In this document: one piece after another, positions 14,055 to 24,544 of the stretch
How the letters are laid out: each line of letters opens with the position of its first letter
Position numbering within the stretch: the stretch's first letter is position 1
Virus record (IMG/VR): IMGVR_UViG_3300009159_000305
Location: 1-24,544 of that record
DNA from: a virus
DNA length: 24,544 nucleotides
Reading direction: 5' to 3' (one strand)
Translations under genes and position numbers: made by a program
The notes under the pieces: model-generated
What the model saw: only the letters and a program-made list of their open reading frames with translations
Database searches by the model: none
Told to the model about the DNA's origin: nothing

Positions 14055-15155
14055 ATGGCAAGCTTAACACTACGAAGCATTAAGGGATCACCTCTAACAC
14101 TAGCTGAGGTAGATGCAAACTTTACTGCTTTAAATACTGAACTTGGTACAAAGCTAACTGCTACTTCATATAATGCAGCAGATATACTTTCAAAACTATT
14201 AACTGTTGACGGAGCTAATTCTGGTTTAGATGCAGACTTAGTGGATGGTTTAAATCCAACTGCAATAAATACTGGTAATAGTTTGGTTTCTAGAAATGCT
14301 TCAGGCAACTTTGCAGCAGGAACAATAACAGCAGCACTGACTGGTGATGTTACAGGTAACGTAACTGGTAATGTAATAGGAAACTTAACTGGAAACGTGA
14401 CAGGTAATACTAGCGGTTCTGCTGGTACATTAGCTAATACTAGAACGTTTACTATTACTGGTGATGGTTCATGGACGACTTCATTTAATGGATCTGCTAA
14501 CGTTACTGGAGCATTGACGCTAGCAACTACTGGAGTATCTGCTGGAACTTATACTAAGATTACGGTGGATGCTAAAGGCAGAGCTACAGCTGGTACATCA
14601 CTAAGTGGAACAGATGTTACTACAGCTTTAGGTTATACTCCATGGCATTCAGGTAACGATGGAACTGGATCTGGATTAGATGCAGACTTATTAGATGGTT
14701 ATAATTCAGCGACTGCAGCTACTGGTAATACTATAGCATTAAGAGATGCTTTTGGAAACTTAACAGCAACAGTATTTACTGGTGTTGCAACATCTGCAAG
14801 ATATGCAGACTTAGCAGAAAAATATACTACAGATAAAGAATATCCTGTTGGCACTGTTGTTGTTATCTCTGATAAAGAAGATTCTGAATGTACAGCATCA
14901 GATTATATAGGACAGCACTCTATAGGAGTTATATCAGAGAATCCAGCATTCTTAATGAATTCAGAATCATCTGGTCAAGCAGTTGCTATCAAAGGAAGAG
15001 TACCTGTTAGAGTAGTTGGCCCTATTAGAAAGGGAGAAACTGTCTGTGCAGCTACAAACGGTCAAGCTACATTAGGACAAGTTAATGCAATCGCAATTGC
15101 ATTAAAGACAGATTTAACTATAGAAGAAAAATTAGTGGAGTGCTTTATATTATAA
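14055..15155 (+). CDS. Tail fibre protein with chaperone/peptidase-G2-like C-terminus (paralogue 2)
   Basis: A 366-residue fibre protein that is a tandem paralogue of the preceding gene. Residues 1-95 align with it (PLTLAEVDANFTALN, SGLDADLVDGLNP, SRNASGNFAAGTITA), followed by a short TGNVTGN shaft. The C-terminus is different: after an SGLDADLLDGYNSA repeat, ARYADLAEKYTTDKEYPVGT (about 261-280) starts a region running to GRVPVRVVG and RKGETV. This resembles the Peptidase_G2/intramolecular-chaperone type tail found on other phage fibres. Whether it self-cleaves cannot be judged here. An AAGGA ribosome binding site (14045-14049) precedes the ATG. The 3' end overlaps the next gene by 16 bases, physically linking fibre and enzyme genes. 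Confidence 0.75.
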   Translation: MASLTLRSIKGSPLTLAEVDANFTALNTELGTKLTATSYNAADILSKLLTVDGANSGLDADLVDGLNPTAINTGNSLVSRNASGNFAAGTITAALTGDVTGNVTGNVIGNLTGNVTGNTSGSAGTLANTRTFTITGDGSWTTSFNGSANVTGALTLATTGVSAGTYTKITVDAKGRATAGTSLSGTDVTTALGYTPWHSGNDGTGSGLDADLLDGYNSATAATGNTIALRDAFGNLTATVFTGVATSARYADLAEKYTTDKEYPVGTVVVISDKEDSECTASDYIGQHSIGVISENPAFLMNSESSGQAVAIKGRVPVRVVGPIRKGETVCAATNGQATLGQVNAIAIALKTDLTIEEKLVECFIL

Positions 15156-15655
15156 CACTTAATGAAGTTGTTGAATTTATTCACAACCCTTTGGCATATA
15201 AACAAAATTTAGTTTCAATAATAAATGACAGGGGGATGCAAATCCCCCTTAATCATTCTAGTGAACTATATGATGATAAGCCTAAGACTATTAAGGTCGA
15301 AGGGATGGAACGCTATTCTAAAGTAATTTTAGATAAGTGTCGTGAGTTGGCTAATGAATATGATCATCATGGTCCTGTCACGTGTCACGCATTCATTGCT
15401 CAAGAAAACTCTCCATCATTTGATACTCATACTGATCCAGATGACGTCATCATAGTCTGTTGTGAAGGTAAAAAAACCATGATGGTGGATAGCACATATA
15501 TAGTATTAGAGGCAGGAGAATACGTTCATATTCCAGCTAATACACCGCATCAAGCACTAAATGAACATGCAGCATTAACATTAAGCTTTGGTTTAGAAAA
15601 CTATTTGAAGGATAAATCTCGTAATGAATTGGATGTTTTACCTAAAGACGACTGA
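15140..15655 (+). CDS. JmjC/cupin-like Fe(II) oxygenase
   Basis: A 171-residue protein with a double-stranded beta-helix signature: HTDPDDV with the metal pair H97 and D99, then EGKKTMMV, and the distal histidine H137 in HIPANTPHQALN. Spacing and the proline-rich loop before the distal His match JmjC-type or cupin Fe(II)/2-oxoglutarate hydroxylases. Some JmjC members hydroxylate protein side chains, which would fit a protein-modifying cassette, but the substrate is unknown. The GTG at 15140 is the longest option and lacks a well-spaced ribosome binding site; ATG 15236 is the next in-frame candidate. I prefer the long form because residues 7-40 look like genuine protein sequence. It overlaps the upstream fibre gene by 16 bases and the downstream radical SAM gene by 32. 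Confidence 0.65.
   Translation: MLYIITLNEVVEFIHNPLAYKQNLVSIINDRGMQIPLNHSSELYDDKPKTIKVEGMERYSKVILDKCRELANEYDHHGPVTCHAFIAQENSPSFDTHTDPDDVIIVCCEGKKTMMVDSTYIVLEAGEYVHIPANTPHQALNEHAALTLSFGLENYLKDKSRNELDVLPKDD
15230..15249 (+). terminator. GC-rich hairpin with GCAA tetraloop, possible terminator
   Basis: An 8-bp perfect stem (AGGGGGAT at 15230-15237 pairs with 15242-15249) closes a GCAA loop of the stable GNRA type. It lies 75 nt after the stop of the last fibre gene. It stands out in this AT-rich DNA. No clean U-tract follows (TAATCATTCT), and it lies inside the oxygenase reading frame, so it may instead be an attenuator or RNA-processing/stability element. Confidence 0.4.
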
Positions 15656-16667
15656 GACATGTAACTTAAACTGTCGCCATTGTTTTACTAATGGTATAAA
15701 TGGCGCAAAGATATATTGGGATCATAATAAAGTAATAGATTGGTTGCATAGATTCTCAGAACAAGCAACAGATACTGATACAGCTCATTGTGAGTTTCAT
15801 GGTGGTGAACCATTCTTAGTTCCTGTATCACAGATGCGCGAGGTATGGGACAAGTGTAAGACATCATTTACTAACATGACGTGGGGTGCAACCACTAACT
15901 TAGTGTTTAAGTTGTACCAAGAACATATAGACCTAATAAAAGGACCATTTGAAGGACGCATCGGCACTTCATGGGATCCAAAGATAAGGTTTGATAATAA
16001 GAAACAAGTAGATCTTTGGAGAAGTAATGTAAAGACGTTACTATCTGAAGGCATAACAATACGATTGTTTATAAGTGTCACAAAAGATACTATAGCTATA
16101 GATCCAATAGTCTTGTTAAGATGGATAAGAAGATTAGGAGTTCAAGAGGTATCATTTGAACGATTAACTAATAATGGAAACGCAAAGAAATTTCCTGAGA
16201 TATTTCCGTCTAACCTAGAACAGGATGCATGGTTCTTAAAGATGCATGAGCAGTCTGTACAATATGGAACAAGAGACTGGTTTGATAATGACTTCTTAGA
16301 AGTAGTATACTCTAAGTTTGAGACTGGATTTAATAAAGGTGGTACATTCTGTAGAGACTGTGAAGAGAAGATATTCACATTAAATGCTGATGGAACCATA
16401 TCTGGATGCCCAAATTCGGCACCAGAATTTCAGTTTGGACATATAGAAGATCCTATAAAAGATCTTATAAATAGTCCAATAAGGCTTGAAAACATAGCTT
16501 GTGAGGCATCAAGGAACGAGATATGTTATTCGTGCGATGTGTTTCAACATTGTGGTGGAGACTGCCATCAATTAGCCTGGGAAGGTGATATATGTGGCGC
16601 ACCTAAGAGTTTAATGAGAGAACTTGCAAAGAATCATAGAAAAGTATTCTCTATAATGCAAGTATAA
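15624..16667 (+). CDS. Radical SAM/SPASM protein 1, putative peptide-modifying enzyme
   Basis: A 347-residue radical SAM enzyme. The [4Fe-4S]/SAM cluster motif CNLNCRHC lies at C13, C17 and C20, followed by the SAM-binding HGGEP at 59-63. The C-terminus is a SPASM domain that binds auxiliary Fe-S clusters: C243, C246, then GC at 261-262, and CYSCDVFQHCGGDC (301-314) with exact CX2CX5CX3C spacing, then C324. SPASM proteins are mainly maturases that modify ribosomal peptides or proteins (for example sactipeptide, quinohemoprotein and HxsB/HxsC-like enzymes). It overlaps the oxygenase by 32 bases; a GAAGGA at 15607-15612 favours the ATG at 15624. It ends 20 bases before the CHxS-tail protein gene, its most obvious candidate substrate (inference). 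Confidence 0.85.
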   Translation: MNWMFYLKTTETCNLNCRHCFTNGINGAKIYWDHNKVIDWLHRFSEQATDTDTAHCEFHGGEPFLVPVSQMREVWDKCKTSFTNMTWGATTNLVFKLYQEHIDLIKGPFEGRIGTSWDPKIRFDNKKQVDLWRSNVKTLLSEGITIRLFISVTKDTIAIDPIVLLRWIRRLGVQEVSFERLTNNGNAKKFPEIFPSNLEQDAWFLKMHEQSVQYGTRDWFDNDFLEVVYSKFETGFNKGGTFCRDCEEKIFTLNADGTISGCPNSAPEFQFGHIEDPIKDLINSPIRLENIACEASRNEICYSCDVFQHCGGDCHQLAWEGDICGAPKSLMRELAKNHRKVFSIMQV

Positions 16668-16670
16668 ATA
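16663..16670 (+). promoter_or_regulatory. T4-type late promoter TATAAATA before CHxS-tail gene
   Basis: An exact TATAAATA overlaps the stop codon of radical SAM gene 1 (TAA 16665-16667), the same arrangement as at 7253. Transcription would begin near 16676, leaving a very short leader with AAGGA at 16676-16680 as ribosome binding site for the ATG at 16688. This marks the 190-aa protein as a late, virion-class gene. Confidence 0.7.
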
Positions 16671-16687
16671 GTATAAAGGAAAAATAG

Positions 16688-17260
16688 ATGGCAACTTTAA
16701 ATAATCCAATTAATCCGCAAAACATAGTCGATAGATTTGCGGACTATGTAGTGGCTACGGCAAACTCTGGTATTGCATGGGGCACTAATGCGTATCCATT
16801 TGCAGAATGGACTTATGGTGCTGAATTCGGGGGTACTACTGCTGGGAAAGCTATCGGTATAACCGGATCAAATGTTGATGCCGTAGGAAATGTCATCAAT
16901 GCCGCAAACATTTATAATACACTGTTGTCTGAGACAGCTACTTATACTAATATCAGAAACTTAAGAGCTTTATTATTTGTGGATGGTGGTGGAGGTGATA
17001 CTGGATCTAGACCAACTCCTGGATATGTATACGATGTTACAGCTGCCGCATATTTTAATACAGCATATCGGCAATCTATAGGAGCGGGTGCATCAGACGT
17101 TGTGTCGGGAAGTACTGCTACCGCGGCGGGTTTAGAAACATTTTTTGATAATTTAAGAACATCATATAATTCAGCTAGAGGAAATACAGTAACACTACAA
17201 GTAAATGTATGTCATGCTTCGTGTCATAATAGTTGTCACAATTCGCGAGGAAGAAGATAA
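16688..17260 (+). CDS. Virion-like protein with C-terminal Cys-His-x-Ser repeat, candidate modification substrate
   Basis: A 190-residue protein with no recognised enzyme motif. Residues 1-170 are small-residue-rich and aromatic, with Gly-rich stretches (VDGGGGDTG) and no cysteine or histidine. The last 16 residues, CHASCHNSCHNSRGRR (C175, C179, C183; H176, H180, H184; S178, S182, S186), contain every Cys and His of the protein in a strict four-residue period, followed by a basic RGRR end. This resembles a modified-peptide tail. HxsA proteins carry His-Xaa-Ser repeats and are linked to radical SAM enzymes HxsB and HxsC. Here the unit is CHxS, and radical SAM/SPASM genes lie on both sides. A late promoter directly precedes the gene. 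Alternatively the tail coordinates a metal ion. Function is inferred, not shown. Confidence 0.65.
   Translation: MATLNNPINPQNIVDRFADYVVATANSGIAWGTNAYPFAEWTYGAEFGGTTAGKAIGITGSNVDAVGNVINAANIYNTLLSETATYTNIRNLRALLFVDGGGGDTGSRPTPGYVYDVTAAAYFNTAYRQSIGAGASDVVSGSTATAAGLETFFDNLRTSYNSARGNTVTLQVNVCHASCHNSCHNSRGRR
17247..17253 (+). promoter_or_regulatory. Shine-Dalgarno GAGGAAG embedded in RGRR codons
   Basis: The codons for the conserved-looking RGRR end of the CHxS protein supply a purine-rich ribosome binding site seven bases before the ATG at 17260. That ATG overlaps the TAA stop by one base (TAATG). This decides the ATG over an in-frame TTG at 17233. Confidence 0.7.
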
Positions 17261-17979
17261 TGAATATTGTTGAAACTACTGCTCCAATATCAATTGAATA
17301 TTTAAAAAAATATTTTATTGATAAAAATACTTTATATATTATTGACTATAAACAAAGTCAATTAAAAAGTAATAAACTAATGACGTATTTAAGTAACTTA
17401 GAAATTCCATGTGATATTAAGTTGAATGAATTAGATACTGTTGAGTTATATGAATTAGTTAAATCATATATGGAAACTACTATGATTGTCAACTTAAAAT
17501 CTTTAGAATTATTTGTAATACACTTAATATTAGAAACAAAGGGTCTATTAAAAGAAGAGTGTCATAAAGACTTTATTGAAGCTAACAAAGAACTTATTGA
17601 TAGTTGGATTAGTAAATTAGATAGTTTAACTTTATATAATATGTTTTCTGTAGATAATGATGAATTTAAATCATTTGTTAAACAATTTCCAGAAGATGAT
17701 ACTGATAGTGTACATGGCATTAATTTTGTTAGTTTATTAAAAAATAAAGAGTTCTATGACATCTATATTAAGATCGATCAAAATAAATTAAAATTTTATA
17801 GTAAATATTTTCAAGAATATATGTTTAGAGGCAAAAATATGTATTCATACTGGGCAAATGAAAATAATTCGTTATTTTTATTAACATATGGTATTTCATC
17901 AGGAGTAATCAATACCGAACAATATATTTCCTCTAAGAAACAAGATATCCAGGAGTTGTCAAATGCTACATCTGTTTAA
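17260..17979 (+). CDS. Unrecognised 239-aa protein, coupled to CHxS-tail gene
   Basis: A hypothetical protein that I do not recognise. The N-terminus (NTLYIIDYKQSQLKSNKL, then EIPCDIKLN) looks like a beta-alpha-beta unit, and the rest is mainly helical with charged surfaces (LELFVIHLILETKGLLKEEC; FYDIYIKIDQNKLKFYSKYF). I see no membrane segment, signal peptide, Cys cluster or catalytic motif, and no clear PqqD-like peptide-recognition domain. Position is informative: it is translationally coupled to the CHxS protein, so it may be a partner, chaperone or recognition factor (inference). Its DNA is very AT-rich: 35 G+C in bases 17281-17460 (19%). It overlaps the next gene by 17 bases. Confidence 0.7.
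   Translation: MNIVETTAPISIEYLKKYFIDKNTLYIIDYKQSQLKSNKLMTYLSNLEIPCDIKLNELDTVELYELVKSYMETTMIVNLKSLELFVIHLILETKGLLKEECHKDFIEANKELIDSWISKLDSLTLYNMFSVDNDEFKSFVKQFPEDDTDSVHGINFVSLLKNKEFYDIYIKIDQNKLKFYSKYFQEYMFRGKNMYSYWANENNSLFLLTYGISSGVINTEQYISSKKQDIQELSNATSV
17951..17955 (+). promoter_or_regulatory. Shine-Dalgarno AGGAG
   Basis: AGGAG lies seven bases before the ATG at 17963, inside the 3' end of the preceding gene. It supports this start for the 400-aa protein despite the 17-base gene overlap. Confidence 0.7.
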
Positions 17980-19165
17980 AAAAGTATATTTAGATTTTGA
18001 TGACAAAATCAATATGAGCTATGATAGAATCATATGCTCTAAAATTTATGGAAATAATACGGATTCTATAGAATTAGCTAAAGTATTCTATGGAAAAAGG
18101 ATTGCAAGTGCCGACAGTATAGACAACTTAATAGGTAGAAATAAATCATATAATACATTTTTAGATATGTTATTACAATTAGATGATTTTTCAGATAATG
18201 ATACTGGGCCAATATATATCTATTGCGATAAAGAATCATATTATACTTTAGCTATTAAATGGCTTAAAGTAATACTACCATTTGCTGATGATGTTTCGGC
18301 ATGGAAATTTTTTAAATCGCACATATTCAAACAGCAAAATTTTGCAAATTCAAGACTATCTTCTACATTTAGATTTACTAGAGATAATCATACTTGGTTG
18401 ATGGAAGAAGCTAGATTTTATAGTATTTGGCGAGATCAAACATTATCTGTAGAAGAGCGCGAAACTTTTATTCCATTTTTACAAAAGAATAAATCTAAAA
18501 TAAGTGTTGAATTTTTATTAGCAGGATATCTGTATGATGGAAGGAACGGTGGAGCTTTAGCAGAAAGTATAACTCCATTAGTTAGAAAGGACTTAGAAAA
18601 ATACTTAAATGAACATAAAGAACTAATATTGGTACATCTTCAGCGAACAAAATTGCAAGAGATGTTAGGTGTAGTTAATGGTCCTTATACATTTGATAAT
18701 TTTTATGACATGCCTAATGATTCGTCTCCATTAGTTAACGTACTATTTAAACAAGATATTTGGGGTGATATTAATGTATTCATTAGACGCCCTTCTTCAA
18801 ATGGATCTATTAATTTATCTGCAATTACCGATGAAGATATAGAAAATCTTAAAAAGTGTAGTGAAGCGGCCACAGTAGCTATATTTGATGTAGAAGGTGG
18901 ATTTAAAACTACATATAATTGTATTCATGCTGAGTGCGATAAATTTGATTTTATTAAAATGTTTAGAACTAAAGATACATTAGATGTAGATGATCTTAAT
19001 AAAATTATTGATTATGAATTATATCATCAAAAACATTCTGCTGGAGCATTTTATGCAATTAACTTAGGAACGGTTAATACATATTTTGTAGATTTCTTAT
19101 TAAATAGTAAAGAAAATACTGGCGCTCTTAGACCTTATATTTTTGAAATGCCTAACGAGACTTAA
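17963..19165 (+). CDS. Unrecognised 400-aa protein of the radical SAM cassette
   Basis: A 400-residue protein without a recognised domain. It begins LHLFKKVYLDFDDKI and contains several hydrophobic strand-like stretches in its first third (PIYIYCDKESYYTLAIKWL, then ILPFADDVSAWKFF). A long helical middle follows (ISVEFLLAGYLYDGRNGG; VRKDLEKYLNEHKELILVHL), and the last third has mixed strands (TVAIFDVEGGFKTTYNCIH; AGAFYAINLGTVNTYFVDFL). No metal-binding cluster, nucleotide-binding loop or transmembrane segment is evident. It has a good AGGAG ribosome binding site, overlaps the 239-aa gene by 17 bases, and ends two bases before the second radical SAM/SPASM gene, so it belongs to the same transcript. 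A role in substrate delivery or enzyme scaffolding is only a guess. Confidence 0.7.
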   Translation: MLHLFKKVYLDFDDKINMSYDRIICSKIYGNNTDSIELAKVFYGKRIASADSIDNLIGRNKSYNTFLDMLLQLDDFSDNDTGPIYIYCDKESYYTLAIKWLKVILPFADDVSAWKFFKSHIFKQQNFANSRLSSTFRFTRDNHTWLMEEARFYSIWRDQTLSVEERETFIPFLQKNKSKISVEFLLAGYLYDGRNGGALAESITPLVRKDLEKYLNEHKELILVHLQRTKLQEMLGVVNGPYTFDNFYDMPNDSSPLVNVLFKQDIWGDINVFIRRPSSNGSINLSAITDEDIENLKKCSEAATVAIFDVEGGFKTTYNCIHAECDKFDFIKMFRTKDTLDVDDLNKIIDYELYHQKHSAGAFYAINLGTVNTYFVDFLLNSKENTGALRPYIFEMPNET

Positions 19166-19167
19166 AC

Positions 19168-20193
19168 ATGTCGATATATGATGTTATTGAATCGAAAGTT
19201 ATTGATTATAGTGAAATCGTAGTAGTTTTATTTGAAGACTGTAACTTAGTCTGCTCCTTCTGTCCGCAAAATCATTCATCTCAGGTTGGAGTATCTAAAC
19301 ATGAGATACTATCTAAGATCCCAGCTATAGTAAATTGGGTTAATACAAACACCCGTTCTAAAAACTTTAAACTCCATATCATGGGTGGAGAAGTATTCCA
19401 AGACAAGTTAGTAGATAGAGGGTTTCTTGATATCTATCAAGAGTTCATGGATAAGCTAAGAGCCGAAATAACACCAGATAAAGACATAGTATTTAACTAT
19501 ATCACCAACCTTGTATTTGATAATCCAAATCCAATCATTGAATTCTTAAATAAGAACACCTTAACTATTTCTACATCTTATGATAGTAAAGGTAGATTTA
19601 ATACTACACAATTAGATACATTTAAAAAGAACGTTGAAGTATTTAAAGACTTAATATCAATGGTATCTGTAGTCACTACACGACAAAATATCTTGGCAGT
19701 AATTAAAGGCGATTCATATTTTGATTATCTATATCAAAACTTTAATTGTGATTGGGATTCATTCATACCTGCAGTTGACGAAGCAAAAGAGATGATGCCA
19801 AAAGAGTCAGAGCTGCTGGCATTATATAAATTATTGGTTGATAAATACCCAAAGTGTTATAATATTCAGTACTTTACATCCGATAAAGCTGAGAATAAAA
19901 TGTCATGTACACGAGGAAATAGTTTTACAGTATTACATGACGGCACTATACCCACCGGTTGTTCAGGAGAACTATTCTTAAAAGGTAATAAGACTGAAGA
20001 TTTAAAATCTGGTGAAATTGTTATTAACTTCTTAAACACATATAATTGTTTTACATGCGAATACTATAAAAAGTGTCCATTCACATGTTTTATTAAGAAC
20101 GATTATAAACATATCGAAAGAGATGTTGAAGACTGTGTTTTTAAATTGACCTTTAAATATGTTGACGAAAAAAATAAAAGTAGCATTCATTAA
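19168..20193 (+). CDS. Radical SAM/SPASM protein 2
   Basis: A 341-residue radical SAM protein. The cluster motif CNLVCSFC has C25, C29 and C32, and IMGGEVF gives the SAM-binding GGE at 73-75. Residues TNLVF and TISTSYDSKGRFNT fit the barrel strands that follow. The C-terminal domain is SPASM-like: C247, GC at 264-265, then CFTCEYYKKCPFTC (294-307) with CX2CX5CX3C spacing, and C323. It is paralogous to the enzymes at 15624 and 23215 but clearly diverged. It starts two bases after the 400-aa gene and its 3' end overlaps the B12-type enzyme gene by 35 bases, suggesting tight translational coupling. A peptide- or protein-modifying role is inferred from the SPASM domain; substrate and chemistry (thioether, C-C link, epimerisation or other) cannot be told. 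Confidence 0.8.
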   Translation: MSIYDVIESKVIDYSEIVVVLFEDCNLVCSFCPQNHSSQVGVSKHEILSKIPAIVNWVNTNTRSKNFKLHIMGGEVFQDKLVDRGFLDIYQEFMDKLRAEITPDKDIVFNYITNLVFDNPNPIIEFLNKNTLTISTSYDSKGRFNTTQLDTFKKNVEVFKDLISMVSVVTTRQNILAVIKGDSYFDYLYQNFNCDWDSFIPAVDEAKEMMPKESELLALYKLLVDKYPKCYNIQYFTSDKAENKMSCTRGNSFTVLHDGTIPTGCSGELFLKGNKTEDLKSGEIVINFLNTYNCFTCEYYKKCPFTCFIKNDYKHIERDVEDCVFKLTFKYVDEKNKSSIH

Positions 20194-21892
20194 TCCTCCT
20201 CATGCTGACTGGTGCTTGGCTAATTTCTCAAGCTTCATGATGTTTAAGAGTCATTATATGCGTTATGGCAAATATAATGAACAAGTCGAATGGTTAATTC
20301 CTGTATACAAGTACAATCAATATGCTAGCGTAGAAGACATATATGAAGATGTTAAAGATGCTGATATTATATTGTTTAGTTGTTATGTATGGAACTATGA
20401 TGTGTGTGATCAAATCGCTGAATTGACTAAACAGAAAAATCCTAAAACTATATGCGTATTAGGAGGTCCACATGTTGGGACAAATGAACCTGAATTCTTA
20501 AAGTCAAGATCATATTATGATTTTACATTAAAACCTACTAAACCTGGAGAAAATTTTGTAGCTGAATTATTAGATTCTTACATTGATAATCAAGGCATCC
20601 CCAACATTAATGATTTATCATGGGAATTAAGATCATCAAAAACATGCCCGCAATTTATGCCAGACTATTCCATTTATGAGGATCATGAAGATCTGATGGT
20701 TATGATGCGCGAATATGCTAAAGATCAGCATTTAGAACCATTTATGATAATCGAGACTACTCGTGGTTGTCCATATCAATGCGCATTTTGTGAGTGGGGT
20801 GGGGGTATTGGTGGCAAGGTTTATAAAAAACCAATGGAAATAGTTAAGAAGGACATACTGGCGCTTAAGCGCACAGGATATAGAGATGTTTATTTAACTG
20901 ATGCTAATTTTGGGGCATTTTACGATAGAGATCTAGAAATATTTCAATTTGCTTGGGATAATGGTATAAATTTAACTGACATATCTACTATGAAAGCTAA
21001 AGATTTAAAACGTAGAAAAGATTTAGTTGATGCGTGGTTTAGTGTTGTTGGAGCTGGCCCAGAAACACACAGTGAAGTAACAACACGTAAAGAAGCTGGT
21101 CATATTTTAGCAGCTGGTGCAGTAGAGATGGCAGAATTATCTGATGCACCATCATATATCTCTATAGTTCCTACAGTATCATTTCAAAGTATATCTGATG
21201 AGGCAATGAAGATTGCTAAACGGGTTGATTTATCATTAGAAGATAAGATAGAACTATCTAGACACATACATAATAAATGCCATCAAGAAGGTTATCCAGT
21301 TCCAGCTATAGAATTAATTCTTGGGATGCCTGGATCAAATAAAGATCACTTCTATGGAGAGTTAGAATTATTATGGAATTTTAAATCATGGACAAGTTTT
21401 AGACATGATTATATGTTTTTACCTGATAGCGATCTAACTAAACCTGAGTATTTAAAAAAATATGACATTAAACTGGTAGAAGTGTATACTGATTTAATAG
21501 ATGAAGAAGGTGTTGATAATAAAAATAGTTTTTATAGAAATAAAAGAAATTATTTTAAAACTATATCATCATGCTATTCTTTTACATTAGAAGATATGGC
21601 AGAAATGTGGATAATGAATATCGCTGGAAATTATCTATTAAAACACATGTATGAAAAATTTGAATCAGATATAACTGCGGCAGAATTTGGTAAATTATCA
21701 TTTAAAGCTATGAAAAATATTGATTCATTTAATATTATTTGGGAAGAGATTATAGATATATTAAATCCTAATACTCCACCTAGGAATAGTAAAAGATTAC
21801 ATGGAAGACTTCGTAATTTAGTTATACATGACTTTATAGAAGAAAATAAAATATTAATTTATAATGATATTTTTATTACATTAAACACATGA
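20159..21892 (+). CDS. B12-binding-type radical SAM enzyme
   Basis: A 577-residue protein with the layout of class B radical SAM enzymes. An N-terminal Rossmann-like cobalamin-binding region (about 5-150) has KVAFINPPHADW, ADIILFSCYVW and the characteristic CVLGGPHVG (99-107). A radical SAM core follows, opening with ETTRGCPYQCAFCEWGG (199-215; C204, C208, C211). A classical DxHxxG base-off cobalamin motif is not visible, which is common in this class. A helical C-terminus of about 150 residues follows (MAEMWIMNIAGNYLLKHMYE at 480-499). Known relatives methylate unactivated carbons or phosphorus, or do ring chemistry. In a cassette with SPASM enzymes, C-methylation of a peptide is one plausible role. 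The start lies 35 bases inside gene 19168-20193, and the end overlaps the next gene by four (ATGA). Confidence 0.85.
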   Translation: MLTKKIKVAFINPPHADWCLANFSSFMMFKSHYMRYGKYNEQVEWLIPVYKYNQYASVEDIYEDVKDADIILFSCYVWNYDVCDQIAELTKQKNPKTICVLGGPHVGTNEPEFLKSRSYYDFTLKPTKPGENFVAELLDSYIDNQGIPNINDLSWELRSSKTCPQFMPDYSIYEDHEDLMVMMREYAKDQHLEPFMIIETTRGCPYQCAFCEWGGGIGGKVYKKPMEIVKKDILALKRTGYRDVYLTDANFGAFYDRDLEIFQFAWDNGINLTDISTMKAKDLKRRKDLVDAWFSVVGAGPETHSEVTTRKEAGHILAAGAVEMAELSDAPSYISIVPTVSFQSISDEAMKIAKRVDLSLEDKIELSRHIHNKCHQEGYPVPAIELILGMPGSNKDHFYGELELLWNFKSWTSFRHDYMFLPDSDLTKPEYLKKYDIKLVEVYTDLIDEEGVDNKNSFYRNKRNYFKTISSCYSFTLEDMAEMWIMNIAGNYLLKHMYEKFESDITAAEFGKLSFKAMKNIDSFNIIWEEIIDILNPNTPPRNSKRLHGRLRNLVIHDFIEENKILIYNDIFITLNT

Positions 21893-22392
21893 TTAATCAA
21901 TTTAATACAAAAGGATTTGTAAAATTATCTGAACCAAATGGTCTAGATCTTATAGATATTAATAGATTTCGTCTACCAAACACAGAAGAAAGATTAAGAG
22001 ATAATACCAAAGATGATGTGGATCCAGAATTAACTCAAAGATTGGAGTTATTTGCACACTATTTAAAAAATAAATACATTGATCCATTTTGGCCTACTAG
22101 TAAATATAATAAATTTATAGCTTTTGAAGGTGTAGATAAAGATAATCAAGGATGGCATACAGATATGATTGAAAAGTATGACATGTTTTTCTTATATTAT
22201 TTTGATGATACTCATGAGTCTACTGGTGGATCTGTAGAATTTAAATGGAAAATTAAAGATAAAGAAGATATGATTAGAATACAACCAAAAGCTGGTGATT
22301 TAATTCTGGTAAATAATAGTAAAGGATTTTGGCATCGTGCTAATCCAACAACCATTCAACGGAGAGTCGTTAGTTTTGACTTTAATATATGA
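21889..22392 (+). CDS. 2-oxoglutarate/Fe(II) oxygenase-like protein, intact HxD...H motif
   Basis: A 167-residue protein of the 2OG-Fe(II) dioxygenase fold, of the compact kind common in T4-like marine phages. GWHTDMIEKYDMFFLYYF (88-105) supplies the HxD pair H90 and D92. GGSVEFKW (113-120), the turn PKAGDLILVNNSKGFWHRA with distal H149 (133-151), and R158/R159 before the last strand give the full facial triad and a likely 2OG-binding arginine. It should be a hydroxylase or desaturase-type oxygenase; protein side chains, nucleotides or small molecules are all possible substrates. It is coupled to its neighbours by ATGA overlaps on both sides and is paralogous to the protein at 22681. Confidence 0.75.
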   Translation: MINQFNTKGFVKLSEPNGLDLIDINRFRLPNTEERLRDNTKDDVDPELTQRLELFAHYLKNKYIDPFWPTSKYNKFIAFEGVDKDNQGWHTDMIEKYDMFFLYYFDDTHESTGGSVEFKWKIKDKEDMIRIQPKAGDLILVNNSKGFWHRANPTTIQRRVVSFDFNI

Positions 22393-22688
22393 GTGAACTA
22401 GAACAATTGGTAGATCGTAAAAATAAAATTAACGCTGAGAGAGATCTGTGTTGTGAATTGGGTAATGCTTGGTTGACACGATTACATGATAATGAAGATG
22501 ATTCTATTAAATACGATCTATACACTAGATTAATTACAGACTTAGAAGAATATAGCCAAATAGTTAAATCTGAGGTAGTTGATATTAATAAAAGAATTTG
22601 TCAGATACTTAATGTAGAATCAATAGAAGACACTGAATATGCTCATATATGTCAATCTAAATATGGATTAGAGAAGCCAAATGATTAA
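22389..22688 (+). CDS. Unrecognised 99-aa helical protein between two oxygenase-like genes
   Basis: A 99-residue acidic, apparently all-helical protein (SELEQLVDRKNKINAERDLC; YTRLITDLEEYSQIVKSEVV) with four cysteines that do not form a recognisable metal motif. It starts with an ATGA overlap and ends with an 8-base overlap into the second oxygenase-like gene, so it is almost certainly translated. Its place between two paralogous oxygenase-fold proteins hints at an adaptor or subunit role, but I recognise no homologue. Confidence 0.65.
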   Translation: MSELEQLVDRKNKINAERDLCCELGNAWLTRLHDNEDDSIKYDLYTRLITDLEEYSQIVKSEVVDINKRICQILNVESIEDTEYAHICQSKYGLEKPND

Positions 22689-23205
22689 TGATTTATTAAC
22701 AAAAGGATTTAAAGTATTAGATGGTAAAAAATATTCTAGTCAATTAGATGTATCTAATATTGAATGGGAATATGAAGGTGGTATTAATAATGATTATCAT
22801 CCAGCAAGTGATAAAGAATTCATATCAGTGGTTTTAAAAACCATTCATACTCAAATTGAATTAGATTTTATTGCTCCACATTTTGATTCATATAAACTAG
22901 AAAGAGCTAGAATTTGGGAAGGAGTATGTTTGGATGCACAACAATGGCATCATCATTTTTATACACATCCTAGATTATTTTTCTTATTATATTGGAGTGA
23001 CACAAAATCTGCTGGAGATGGATCTATATGGTTTTCCGATGCTTCTCGTACAAAAGAATATAGATTATGGCCAACTCCTGGAACATTAATAGTTGCTAAT
23101 AATAGTAATAAATTTTTACATAAAGTAGAAAAAACAAATTCAAAACGAATCATAGCTGAATTTTATTTTGATTTAGATTTATCAACGTATCACGCTAAAT
23201 TATGA
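22681..23205 (+). CDS. 2-oxoglutarate oxygenase-fold protein with His replacing metal-binding Asp
   Basis: A 174-residue paralogue of the protein at 21889. Both begin MIN plus a TKGF segment, and both share the core pattern: QQWHHHFYTHPRLFFLLYW (87-105) aligns with QGWHTDMIEKYDMFFLYYF, and PGTLIVANNSNKFLHKV (133-149) aligns with AGDLILVNNSKGFWHRA. The key change is in the metal motif: HxD (WHTD) has become WHHH, so D92 is replaced by H92, while the distal H147 and R156 are kept. The site could be a three-histidine non-heme iron centre, as in cysteine-dioxygenase-type cupins, a different metal site, or a catalytically dead partner of its neighbour. It overlaps the 99-aa gene by 8 bases and lies 9 bases before the third SPASM gene. 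Confidence 0.65.
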   Translation: MINDLLTKGFKVLDGKKYSSQLDVSNIEWEYEGGINNDYHPASDKEFISVVLKTIHTQIELDFIAPHFDSYKLERARIWEGVCLDAQQWHHHFYTHPRLFFLLYWSDTKSAGDGSIWFSDASRTKEYRLWPTPGTLIVANNSNKFLHKVEKTNSKRIIAEFYFDLDLSTYHAKL

Positions 23206-23214
23206 AAGTATGTA

Positions 23215-24288
23215 ATGGATCTAATAATCAAACCAACAGAAAAGTGTAACTTTAAATGCACATTTTGTTCGAGCACACATATCACTGAAGATAAGACTGC
23301 AGAGTTAGATCATCAGCATATCTTTGACTTCTTAAAGAGGTTCCCAGAAACAAATACTATCATAGTCAACGGCGGAGATCCATTGATGATGGAGCCGGAC
23401 TATTACTGGAAGATCATAGAACACTTAGATGAGATAGGTTCTCATGCTAGTATATCATTCACTACAAACTTATGGCCATTCTATAAGAACCCAAATAAGT
23501 GGAAAGAACTATTTAATCATCCAAGACTCGGCATAACTACATCTTTCCAATATGGTGGCGGTAGACTTAAGGGAGACTTGACAGAGTTTAGCGAAGAAGA
23601 CTTTTGGAAGTGTTCAGATGCCATGTTAGAACACTGCGGATATAGACCAGACTTCATAGCAGTCATCACTGAAGAGAACGAACACGATGCGATAAAAAAC
23701 GTTGAGTTAGCTAAGAAGATGGGTGTAGAGTGTAAGCTTAACTATGCATTCTCATCGGGGCCACCGGTCAAGTTCAAGAATATAATCATGGGTCAAGAAG
23801 GTAAGCCATACCTATTAGCAGACATATATGAGATATATGTTGAGATATGGAAAAGGGGTTTAACTGAGTGGGAATATAATACCAAACAAATGGTTAAACG
23901 TTTGCGAGGTGAAGGTACTACATGTCCTCAAAATAGAGACTGCGATGATGGTATTAGAACTCTTCAACCTTCTGGTGATTACTATTCATGTGGTGCATTT
24001 GGTGATGACCAACAACATCCAATAGACTTTAAAAAAGAAATGACTGGTGAAAAGATATATCCTATTAAGTTTCAGCCTGAACTACAGAGTTTAAAACAGT
24101 CATGTTATACATGTCCTATGTTTCAAATATGTAATGGGTGCAAGAAGACTATCAAAGATCTTAAGAGCTATAACTTAGTTGAAGAACACTGTTACAAGAT
24201 GAAACAACTTGCACCTGATATAATCAAAGCTAATGGATTAGAATTAGAACCTACTCCATATGAGAGGGAATATGATTATATCAATTAA
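23215..24288 (+). CDS. Radical SAM/SPASM-like protein 3
   Basis: A 357-residue radical SAM enzyme that starts directly with its cluster motif: EKCNFKCTFCSS gives C11, C15 and C18. VNGGDP (51-56) is the SAM-binding turn, with GGD in place of GGE. TTNLWPFY and ITTSFQYGGGRLKG mark barrel strands. The C-terminal auxiliary-cluster region has C237, C243, SCG with C259, and CYTCPMFQICNGC (297-309). That last group has CX2CX5CX2C spacing, one residue shorter than the CX2CX5CX3C of the other two SPASM proteins here, followed by C326. Its DNA is far less AT-rich than the oxygenase genes just before it. It overlaps the next radical SAM gene by 17 bases. Confidence 0.85.
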   Translation: MDLIIKPTEKCNFKCTFCSSTHITEDKTAELDHQHIFDFLKRFPETNTIIVNGGDPLMMEPDYYWKIIEHLDEIGSHASISFTTNLWPFYKNPNKWKELFNHPRLGITTSFQYGGGRLKGDLTEFSEEDFWKCSDAMLEHCGYRPDFIAVITEENEHDAIKNVELAKKMGVECKLNYAFSSGPPVKFKNIIMGQEGKPYLLADIYEIYVEIWKRGLTEWEYNTKQMVKRLRGEGTTCPQNRDCDDGIRTLQPSGDYYSCGAFGDDQQHPIDFKKEMTGEKIYPIKFQPELQSLKQSCYTCPMFQICNGCKKTIKDLKSYNLVEEHCYKMKQLAPDIIKANGLELEPTPYEREYDYIN

Positions 24289-24544
24289 TCCATGGTACTA
24301 CTGTAACTTTAGATGTGACTTCTGTTACCTAACTAAAGAACAGCTAGACGATAAGACTCTATTAGATTTAAGAGTATTAGAAAATAGACTTGATGAAATA
24401 TTATTAGTCGAAGAGATCCATGGTATAGACTTATATGGTGGAGAGATAGGGTTATTAACCGAAGATTATGTAGAAGAGTTATGTGCCATAGTAAAATCAA
24501 GAGGTATAAATGACATAAACATAATCACTAATCTAAGTATGGTC
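24272..24544 (+). CDS. Radical SAM protein 4/5th of cassette, truncated by window end
   Basis: The reading frame from the ATG at 24272 stays open for 91 codons to the last base of the window. It begins MIISINPWYYCNFRCDFCYL, giving the cluster cysteines C11, C15 and C18, and carries LYGGEIG at 54-60 (SAM-binding GGE). ITNLSMV ends the visible part. It is thus the N-terminal third of another radical SAM enzyme. A GAGAGGG purine stretch (24262-24268) precedes the start, and the gene overlaps the preceding one by 17 bases. Whether it has a SPASM domain lies outside the window. Confidence 0.85.
   Translation, partial: MIISINPWYYCNFRCDFCYLTKEQLDDKTLLDLRVLENRLDEILLVEEIHGIDLYGGEIGLLTEDYVEELCAIVKSRGINDINIITNLSMV

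Follow-up and report, generated by a model that had tools for sequence, protein, structure and literature searches.

Why does a T4-like phage carry a run of radical S-adenosylmethionine (SAM) and oxygenase genes directly behind its tail-fibre genes, and on what would their products act? We addressed this question in IMG/VR record IMGVR_UViG_3300009159_000305, whose whole stretch of 24,544 nucleotides is called the window here; this 24.5 kb of DNA comes from an uncultured T4-like phage, as indicated by the virus record and by baseplate wedge proteins recognised with PHROG. Two tail-fibre genes are followed by a cupin/JmjC-like gene, the radical SAM gene R1, a gene for a 190-amino-acid (aa) protein that ends in Cys-His-x-Ser units (CHxS protein), genes A and B and the radical SAM gene R2, and then by a B12-type radical SAM gene, a 2-oxoglutarate (2OG) oxygenase gene, a gene for an uncharacterised 99-aa protein, a second 2OG-like gene, R3 and the truncated R4 (Table 1). 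A preliminary description of this DNA had proposed that the phage modifies a component of its own virion. Our analysis indicates that the cassette is real and strongly paired with the tail, and that the phage probably uses it to mature a fibre-associated protein.

The evidence that carries this conclusion is the constant company of the tail. Searching 50,697 GenBank phage records with tblastn, we found the CHxS protein in seven and R1 in the identical seven, and in all six annotated phages examined among these the cupin, R1 and CHxS genes stood in a row. Starting from R1, 80 viral loci were collected, and tail and gene A were present in 76 of 76 with enough downstream DNA, the remaining four contigs ending within 263 bases after R1. 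Starting from the tail, 114 of 120 stretches held true C-terminal tails, and gene A together with a radical SAM gene was found in each of the 54 loci with at least 3.5 kb downstream. Starting from R3, gene A was present in 36 of 36 fully flanked loci, 33 of which had a visible tail, exact in 30; two of the three variant tails read CHSSCHSSHSSRNRR and the third, CHSSCHYSCHSSCHGD, is without the R-x-R-R end. In two further loci of this set (L084 and L190) the same contig carried the tail a short way beyond the stretch, which left one tail-lacking exception (L371). A single-protein scan of viral contigs with gene A gave one relative. Across four search directions, neither a tail without enzymes nor enzymes without a tail was found wherever enough DNA was available. 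The co-occurrence of tail and enzymes suggested in the preliminary description is thereby strongly supported, and we regard the pairing of the CHxS tail with radical SAM genes as near certain; gene A as a constant third partner goes beyond what had been proposed. The cassette is carried by many large and T4-like phages, among which Atu_ph07, FLC6, SURPRISE13 and Phosso have culturable hosts. In addition, phage-like DNA with the cassette occurs in bins called bacterial or archaeal (L254, L273 from a Rhodobacteraceae bin, L214, L233 and L252).

Across 166 distinct proteins the tail follows the consensus C-H-x-[S/N]-C-H-x-[S/N]-C-H-x-[S/A/N]-R-[G/S]-R-R, rare letters aside. In the tail-first set the invariance of Cys, His and Arg is partly imposed by the search pattern, whereas the R1-first set is free of that effect. 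Because the tail is near-invariant and sits at the exact C-terminus while its synonymous codons are diverse, it is not a chance feature. The N-terminal domain in front of it is variable, with a mean column identity of 24% in the whole-family alignment, and the proteins span 120-370 aa. An AlphaFold2 (AF2) model has a mean predicted local distance difference test (pLDDT) score of 89 for the whole protein and of about 55 for the tail; the N-terminal domain is thus predicted to be a folded head and the tail to be disordered. Structure matches to this model were viral uncharacterised proteins only, the Atu_ph07 relative among them, and a fold search of gene A against solved structures returned nothing usable. 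The residue two positions after His was Ser in 454, Asn in 57 and Ala in 16 of 537 tail positions, and never Gly or Pro. One CHxS protein (L124, 8105-8878) has four Cys-His units (CHSNCHSNCHSNCHTNRSRR). In six loci (L093, L117, L126, L160, L167 and L179) a tandem pair of CHxS proteins of about 125-140 aa lies directly after the fibre gene; in this layout the two short proteins are followed by a separate, divergent set of radical SAM genes with the CX3CX2C motif and by gene A.

Regarding expression and location, the preliminary description had called the CHxS protein a late-expressed virion component. The first part gained support: an exact T4-type late box, TATAAATA, precedes the gene in the window, and the same box lies within 80 bases upstream of 29 out of 154 CHxS genes (19%), against a background of about 0.5% and compared with none of 134 gene A copies and none of 178 R1-family genes. 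By its upstream sequence, the CHxS gene has a late promoter of its own that is absent from its enzymes. The second part is borne out indirectly. The CHxS gene adjoins a fibre gene in most loci, and in Atu_ph07, where electrospray ionisation tandem mass spectrometry defined virion clusters at coding sequences (CDS) 31-76, 170-215 and 284-329 (PMC6102473), the CHxS protein corresponds to CDS 170, the first gene of the cluster CDS 170-215. Because the gene lies behind a fibre gene, has a private late promoter and stands at the edge of the Atu_ph07 virion cluster, the CHxS protein is likely a part of the virion.

We consider it reasonably likely that the phage cassette encodes a peptide-maturation pathway and that its enzymes act on the C-terminal tail of this fibre-associated protein. 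The CHxS protein would be made late, from its own promoter, and its N-terminal domain, perhaps with gene A as a carrier, would offer R1 and the remaining radical SAM enzymes the disordered tail, (C-H-x-S/N)n-R-x-R-R, for the installation of side-chain cross-links at each His-x-Ser/Asn unit. The cross-links would most plausibly be imidazole-to-C-beta rings as in triceptides, perhaps with Cys thioethers, while the cupin protein, the 2OG oxygenases and the optional B12 enzyme may hydroxylate or methylate the tail. The modified protein would then be assembled into the virion, at the fibre or in its vicinity, and a rigid, metal-binding or receptor-binding tail may act at the bacterial surface. A known reaction of SPASM radical SAM enzymes couples an aromatic residue to the C-beta two positions on, and known three-residue cyclophanes connect His with Ala or Arg, and Phe with Ser, in each case through the C-beta of the latter (PMC11002830). 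The (C)H-x-S/N units fit this type of joining, and neither Gly nor Pro occurs two residues after His in the 537 tail positions. A more specific version is put forward tentatively: a virus-encoded pathway with several radical SAM enzymes would covalently form a row of small rings along the C-terminal tail of a protein at the fibre tip, the product would serve at the surface of the bacterium, and Bdellovibrio-type predators would have the same pathway on their chromosomes beside pilin-like genes.

If this proposal is true, viruses apply radical SAM peptide chemistry to their own particles, which would add a new type of virion maturation and perhaps a novel means of gripping the bacterial surface. 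It would also assign a function to radical SAM genes that in marine and jumbo phages have so far been listed as accessory or as auxiliary metabolic genes. For new cross-linking chemistry the cassette would offer a defined set of enzymes together with a recognisable substrate tail, and the bacterial chromosomal copies described below would allow a connection between the attachment of phages and predation by bacteria to be tested. In earlier reports, radical SAM genes of jumbo and marine T4-like phages are listed as accessory, auxiliary metabolic or unknown (PMC8066314, PMC11898562, PMC5468394, PMC7029224, PMC5332604), and in part these are the same genes (gp70 and gp71 of FLC6, gp70 and gp71 of SURPRISE13). 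Within the accessible open PubMed Central (PMC) literature, subscription papers and preprints aside, we found none linking phage radical SAM genes to a substrate tail, to co-occurrence or to a virion protein. Our data suggest a radical-chemistry remodelling of the tip of a virus-particle protein, which is undescribed for a virus in that literature.

Comparison with characterised systems places the cassette near several of them. The preliminary description had pointed to the His-Xaa-Ser (Hxs) enzymes HxsB and HxsC, and the likeness is genuine in that tandem His-x-Ser units occur in a protein adjoining radical SAM enzymes, at least one of them with SPASM; beyond that the link is one of analogy, as R1 reaches 21.6 bits against the HxsB cut-off of 370 (TIGR03978) and R3 reaches 29.8 bits against the HxsC cut-off of 267.9 (TIGR03977). 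Regarding HxsA and HxsD, no NCBIfam match was obtained for the CHxS protein, A, B and the 99-aa protein, the cupin and the second 2OG protein lying outside that scan. In contrast to the Hxs system, Cys precedes His here and the tail ends in R-x-R-R, genes A and B and the cupin, 2OG and B12 enzymes are present, and the location is in phages. The cassette falls outside the known His-Xaa-Ser system. With the triceptide or three-residue cyclophane-forming enzymes (3-CyFE; YhhB, HaaB, FxsB, XncB) it shares a SPASM radical SAM enzyme, namely R1, and an aromatic-x-X3 motif in which X3 (Ser, Asn, Ala or Arg, for example) bears a C-beta; in the family scores, however, R1 reaches 29.8, 28.3, 19.6 and 21.5 bits for FxsB, YhhB, XyeB and AmcB against cut-offs of 370-450. 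Moreover, each cassette here has several radical SAM enzymes, the putative substrate is a large folded protein that bears its tail at the C-terminus, and the bond is a proposed one. Dynobactin, which has a known His-containing cross-link, offers a further parallel, DynA being the third-ranked match of R1. Membership in the darobactin/dynobactin group (DarE, DynA) was rejected, as the best NCBIfam match of R3, DynA, gives 44.7 bits against 450; this cassette also differs in having no short precursor, exporter or protease. Membership of R1 in the viperin (pVip) family was rejected as well, its match to the pVip model scoring 31.6 bits and covering just 64 of 257 positions. The KedN5 match of the B12-type enzyme reaches 101 bits against a cut-off of 700.

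Beyond the phages, and likewise not anticipated in the preliminary description, chromosomal copies exist in predatory bacteria. Predation is known for the Bdellovibrionota as a group. A scan of bacterial genomes for the tail pattern, in which genome contigs give many chance matches in other frames (88 stretches, with 14 true tail open reading frames (ORFs) among 80 loci), revealed true CHxS tails on Bdellovibrionota contigs. Gene A was present in 15 of 291 Bdellovibrionota genomes, with a CHxS-type tail in all 14 of these inspected, and the copies retain the pairing of enzymes and tail. Their flanks are ordinary chromosome genes, one copy lying on a 4.15-Mb contig. Tail variants include YCHGNFPPPCHGSRGRR, YCHTNVPTPPPCHASRGRR, YCHSNHCSHSNHGSRGRR and CHSNCYTPPPKSRSRR; constant among them are His with Ser or Asn two positions on and then a basic end, while Cys is sometimes lost. 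The whole cassette was seen on bacterial chromosomes in L302-L309 and L322-L327, where a link to pili is a possibility, and in most of six Bdellovibrionota loci with wide flanks a prepilin-like gene and a protein of about 195 aa with a VWN-VWND motif lie nearby. The idea that this VWND protein corresponds to the C-terminal domain of the phage fibre was attractive on visual inspection but is not upheld here (profile comparison 33-36% probability with an out-of-register alignment; reversed control 0.2%). In the gene A tree, Bdellovibrionota fall in several places with weak support, and the order, phage first or Bdellovibrionota first, is not resolved. Two other phyla, represented by 398 and 198 genomes, gave no gene A, in sets that lack a positive control.

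Several points weigh against a maturation pathway for a virion protein. Modification of the tail is itself inferred, none having been observed, and R1, R2 and R3 lie far below the cut-off of every characterised peptide maturase in NCBIfam, so that the type of bond is not fixed. The N-terminal domain of the CHxS protein had no match among solved structures in a fold search, and CDS 170 of Atu_ph07 is placed among the detected virion proteins by the edge of its cluster. A role confined to the virion does not fit the copies on the chromosomes of predatory bacteria, and no obvious signal peptide is seen in the Bdellovibrionota CHxS proteins.

Alternatively, the modified CHxS protein may stay outside the particle and work within the cell, whether infected or predatory, where it would serve for example takeover, counter-defence or remodelling of the envelope. 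Cytoplasmic-looking CHxS proteins in bacteria too and the weak pVip similarity of R1, R3 and R4 speak for such a role, but the pVip matches are limited to the common radical SAM core, and the usual location behind a fibre gene, the late promoter and the edge of the Atu_ph07 virion cluster speak against it, making it unlikely. A factory for ribosomally synthesised and post-translationally modified peptides (RiPPs), in which the N-terminal domain would be no more than a large leader and the matured tail would be cleaved from it to give a free small peptide with an antibacterial, signalling or metal-carrying role, is rather improbable. Its gene content would be in keeping with radical SAM RiPP clusters and the cassette also occurs on bacterial chromosomes, yet no RiPP-type maturation protease or exporter was detected among those cassette genes of the window that match known families in Pfam or NCBIfam, the protein is 120-370 aa long with a confidently folded domain, and the private late promoter and the Atu_ph07 cluster-edge position do not favour a released peptide. 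It is very improbable that the tail forms a metal- or disulfide-binding Cys/His cap without any modification while the radical SAM enzymes serve another pathway such as auxiliary metabolism, as assumed in earlier papers that grouped such genes of marine T4-like phages with genes for Fe-S or auxiliary metabolic functions (PMC5332604, PMC7150976), since tail and enzymes never separate in four search directions and in the Bdellovibrionota copies, and Cys can be lost while His-x-Ser stays.

Table 1 Features of the fibre-adjacent cassette (coordinates in the window; bit scores are given with model cut-offs where available)
Feature	Coordinates	Strand	Basis
Tail-fibre gene, directly upstream of the cassette	14055..15155	+	PHROG tail fiber match; C-terminal domain 'YADLAEKY...'
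Cupin / JmjC_2-like protein, candidate Fe(II) hydroxylase	15140..15655	+	Cupin_2 34.2, JmjC_2 33.7 bits, above Pfam cut-offs; phrog_8014
R1, radical SAM/SPASM	15624..16667	+	phrog_1802; SPASM TIGR04085 31.4 vs 27 bits
TATAAATA, late-promoter-like box before the CHxS gene	16663..16670	+	Exact match, 17 nt before the CHxS ATG
CHxS protein, 190 aa, N-domain 1-174 plus tail	16688..17260	+	PHROG 35144 match reaching the C-terminal end
C-terminal tail CHASCHNSCHNSRGRR, presumed modification site	17210..17257	+	End of CHxS protein
Gene A (phrog_20767), fold without assignment, constant tail partner	17260..17979	+	PHROG; co-occurrence
Gene B, uncharacterised family	17963..19165	+	After gene A in most loci
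R2, radical SAM, Cys-rich C-terminus	19168..20193	+	No SPASM match by model
B12-binding radical SAM, optional module	20159..21892	+	Both Pfam domains pass; resembles KedN5-like C-methyltransferase
2OG-Fe(II) oxygenase	21889..22392	+	Pfam 32.8 vs 27 bits
99-aa uncharacterised protein, found with B12 module	22389..22688	+	Neighbourhood of relatives
Second 2OG-Fe(II) oxygenase-like protein	22681..23205	+	Pfam 23.2 bits, below cut-off 27
R3, radical SAM, SPASM-like cysteines	23215..24288	+	SPASM model 23.2 bits, just below 27
R4, radical SAM, cut by contig end	24260..24544	+	Near relative L009: R4 316 aa, then 139-aa ORF

The composition of the cassette agrees largely with the preliminary description. 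All five radical SAM genes were recovered, including the B12 type and R4 as the one truncated by the contig end, and PHROG tail-fibre matches for the preceding gene confirm the position directly after the fibre genes. Of three enzymes called SPASM-type, R1 passes the model, whereas R3 is just short and R2, Cys-rich at its C-terminus, has no match; of three oxygenase folds, those at 15140 and 21889 pass Pfam and the one at 22681 does not. Instead of two unknowns there are three, at 17233, 17963 and 22389, the first of which is gene A; its start is probably the ATG at 17260 and not the TTG at 17233, because a TAATG overlap joins it to the CHxS stop. The genes, said to be co-directional and overlapping, are all co-directional, and most but not all of them overlap.

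The fibre gene directly upstream has a borderline match to the autocleavage chaperone Peptidase_G2 (PF11962; 24.8 bits against a cut-off of 25), and most loci of the T4-like and tandem types likewise have a member of its family upstream. As an optional component, the B12 enzyme gave 49 matches in 48 of the scanned loci; B12 radical SAM, 2OG oxygenase and an uncharacterised protein of about 100 aa travel together in the window (20159-22688) and in relatives (L009, L030, L303 and L325), and this module occurs in phages and Bdellovibrionota. An uncharacterised family of about 140-150 aa with the motif L-x-x-G/N-N-D-P-x-F lies in or ends the cassette in phages and bacteria (L003 15085-15510, L323 12895-13350, L324 5590-6045). 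The cassette of SURPRISE13 contains two genes annotated as dihydrofolate reductase (L002 14406-15583), and in FLC6 a GIY-YIG nuclease gene lies between the structural gene and the cupin gene (L007 3555-4463).

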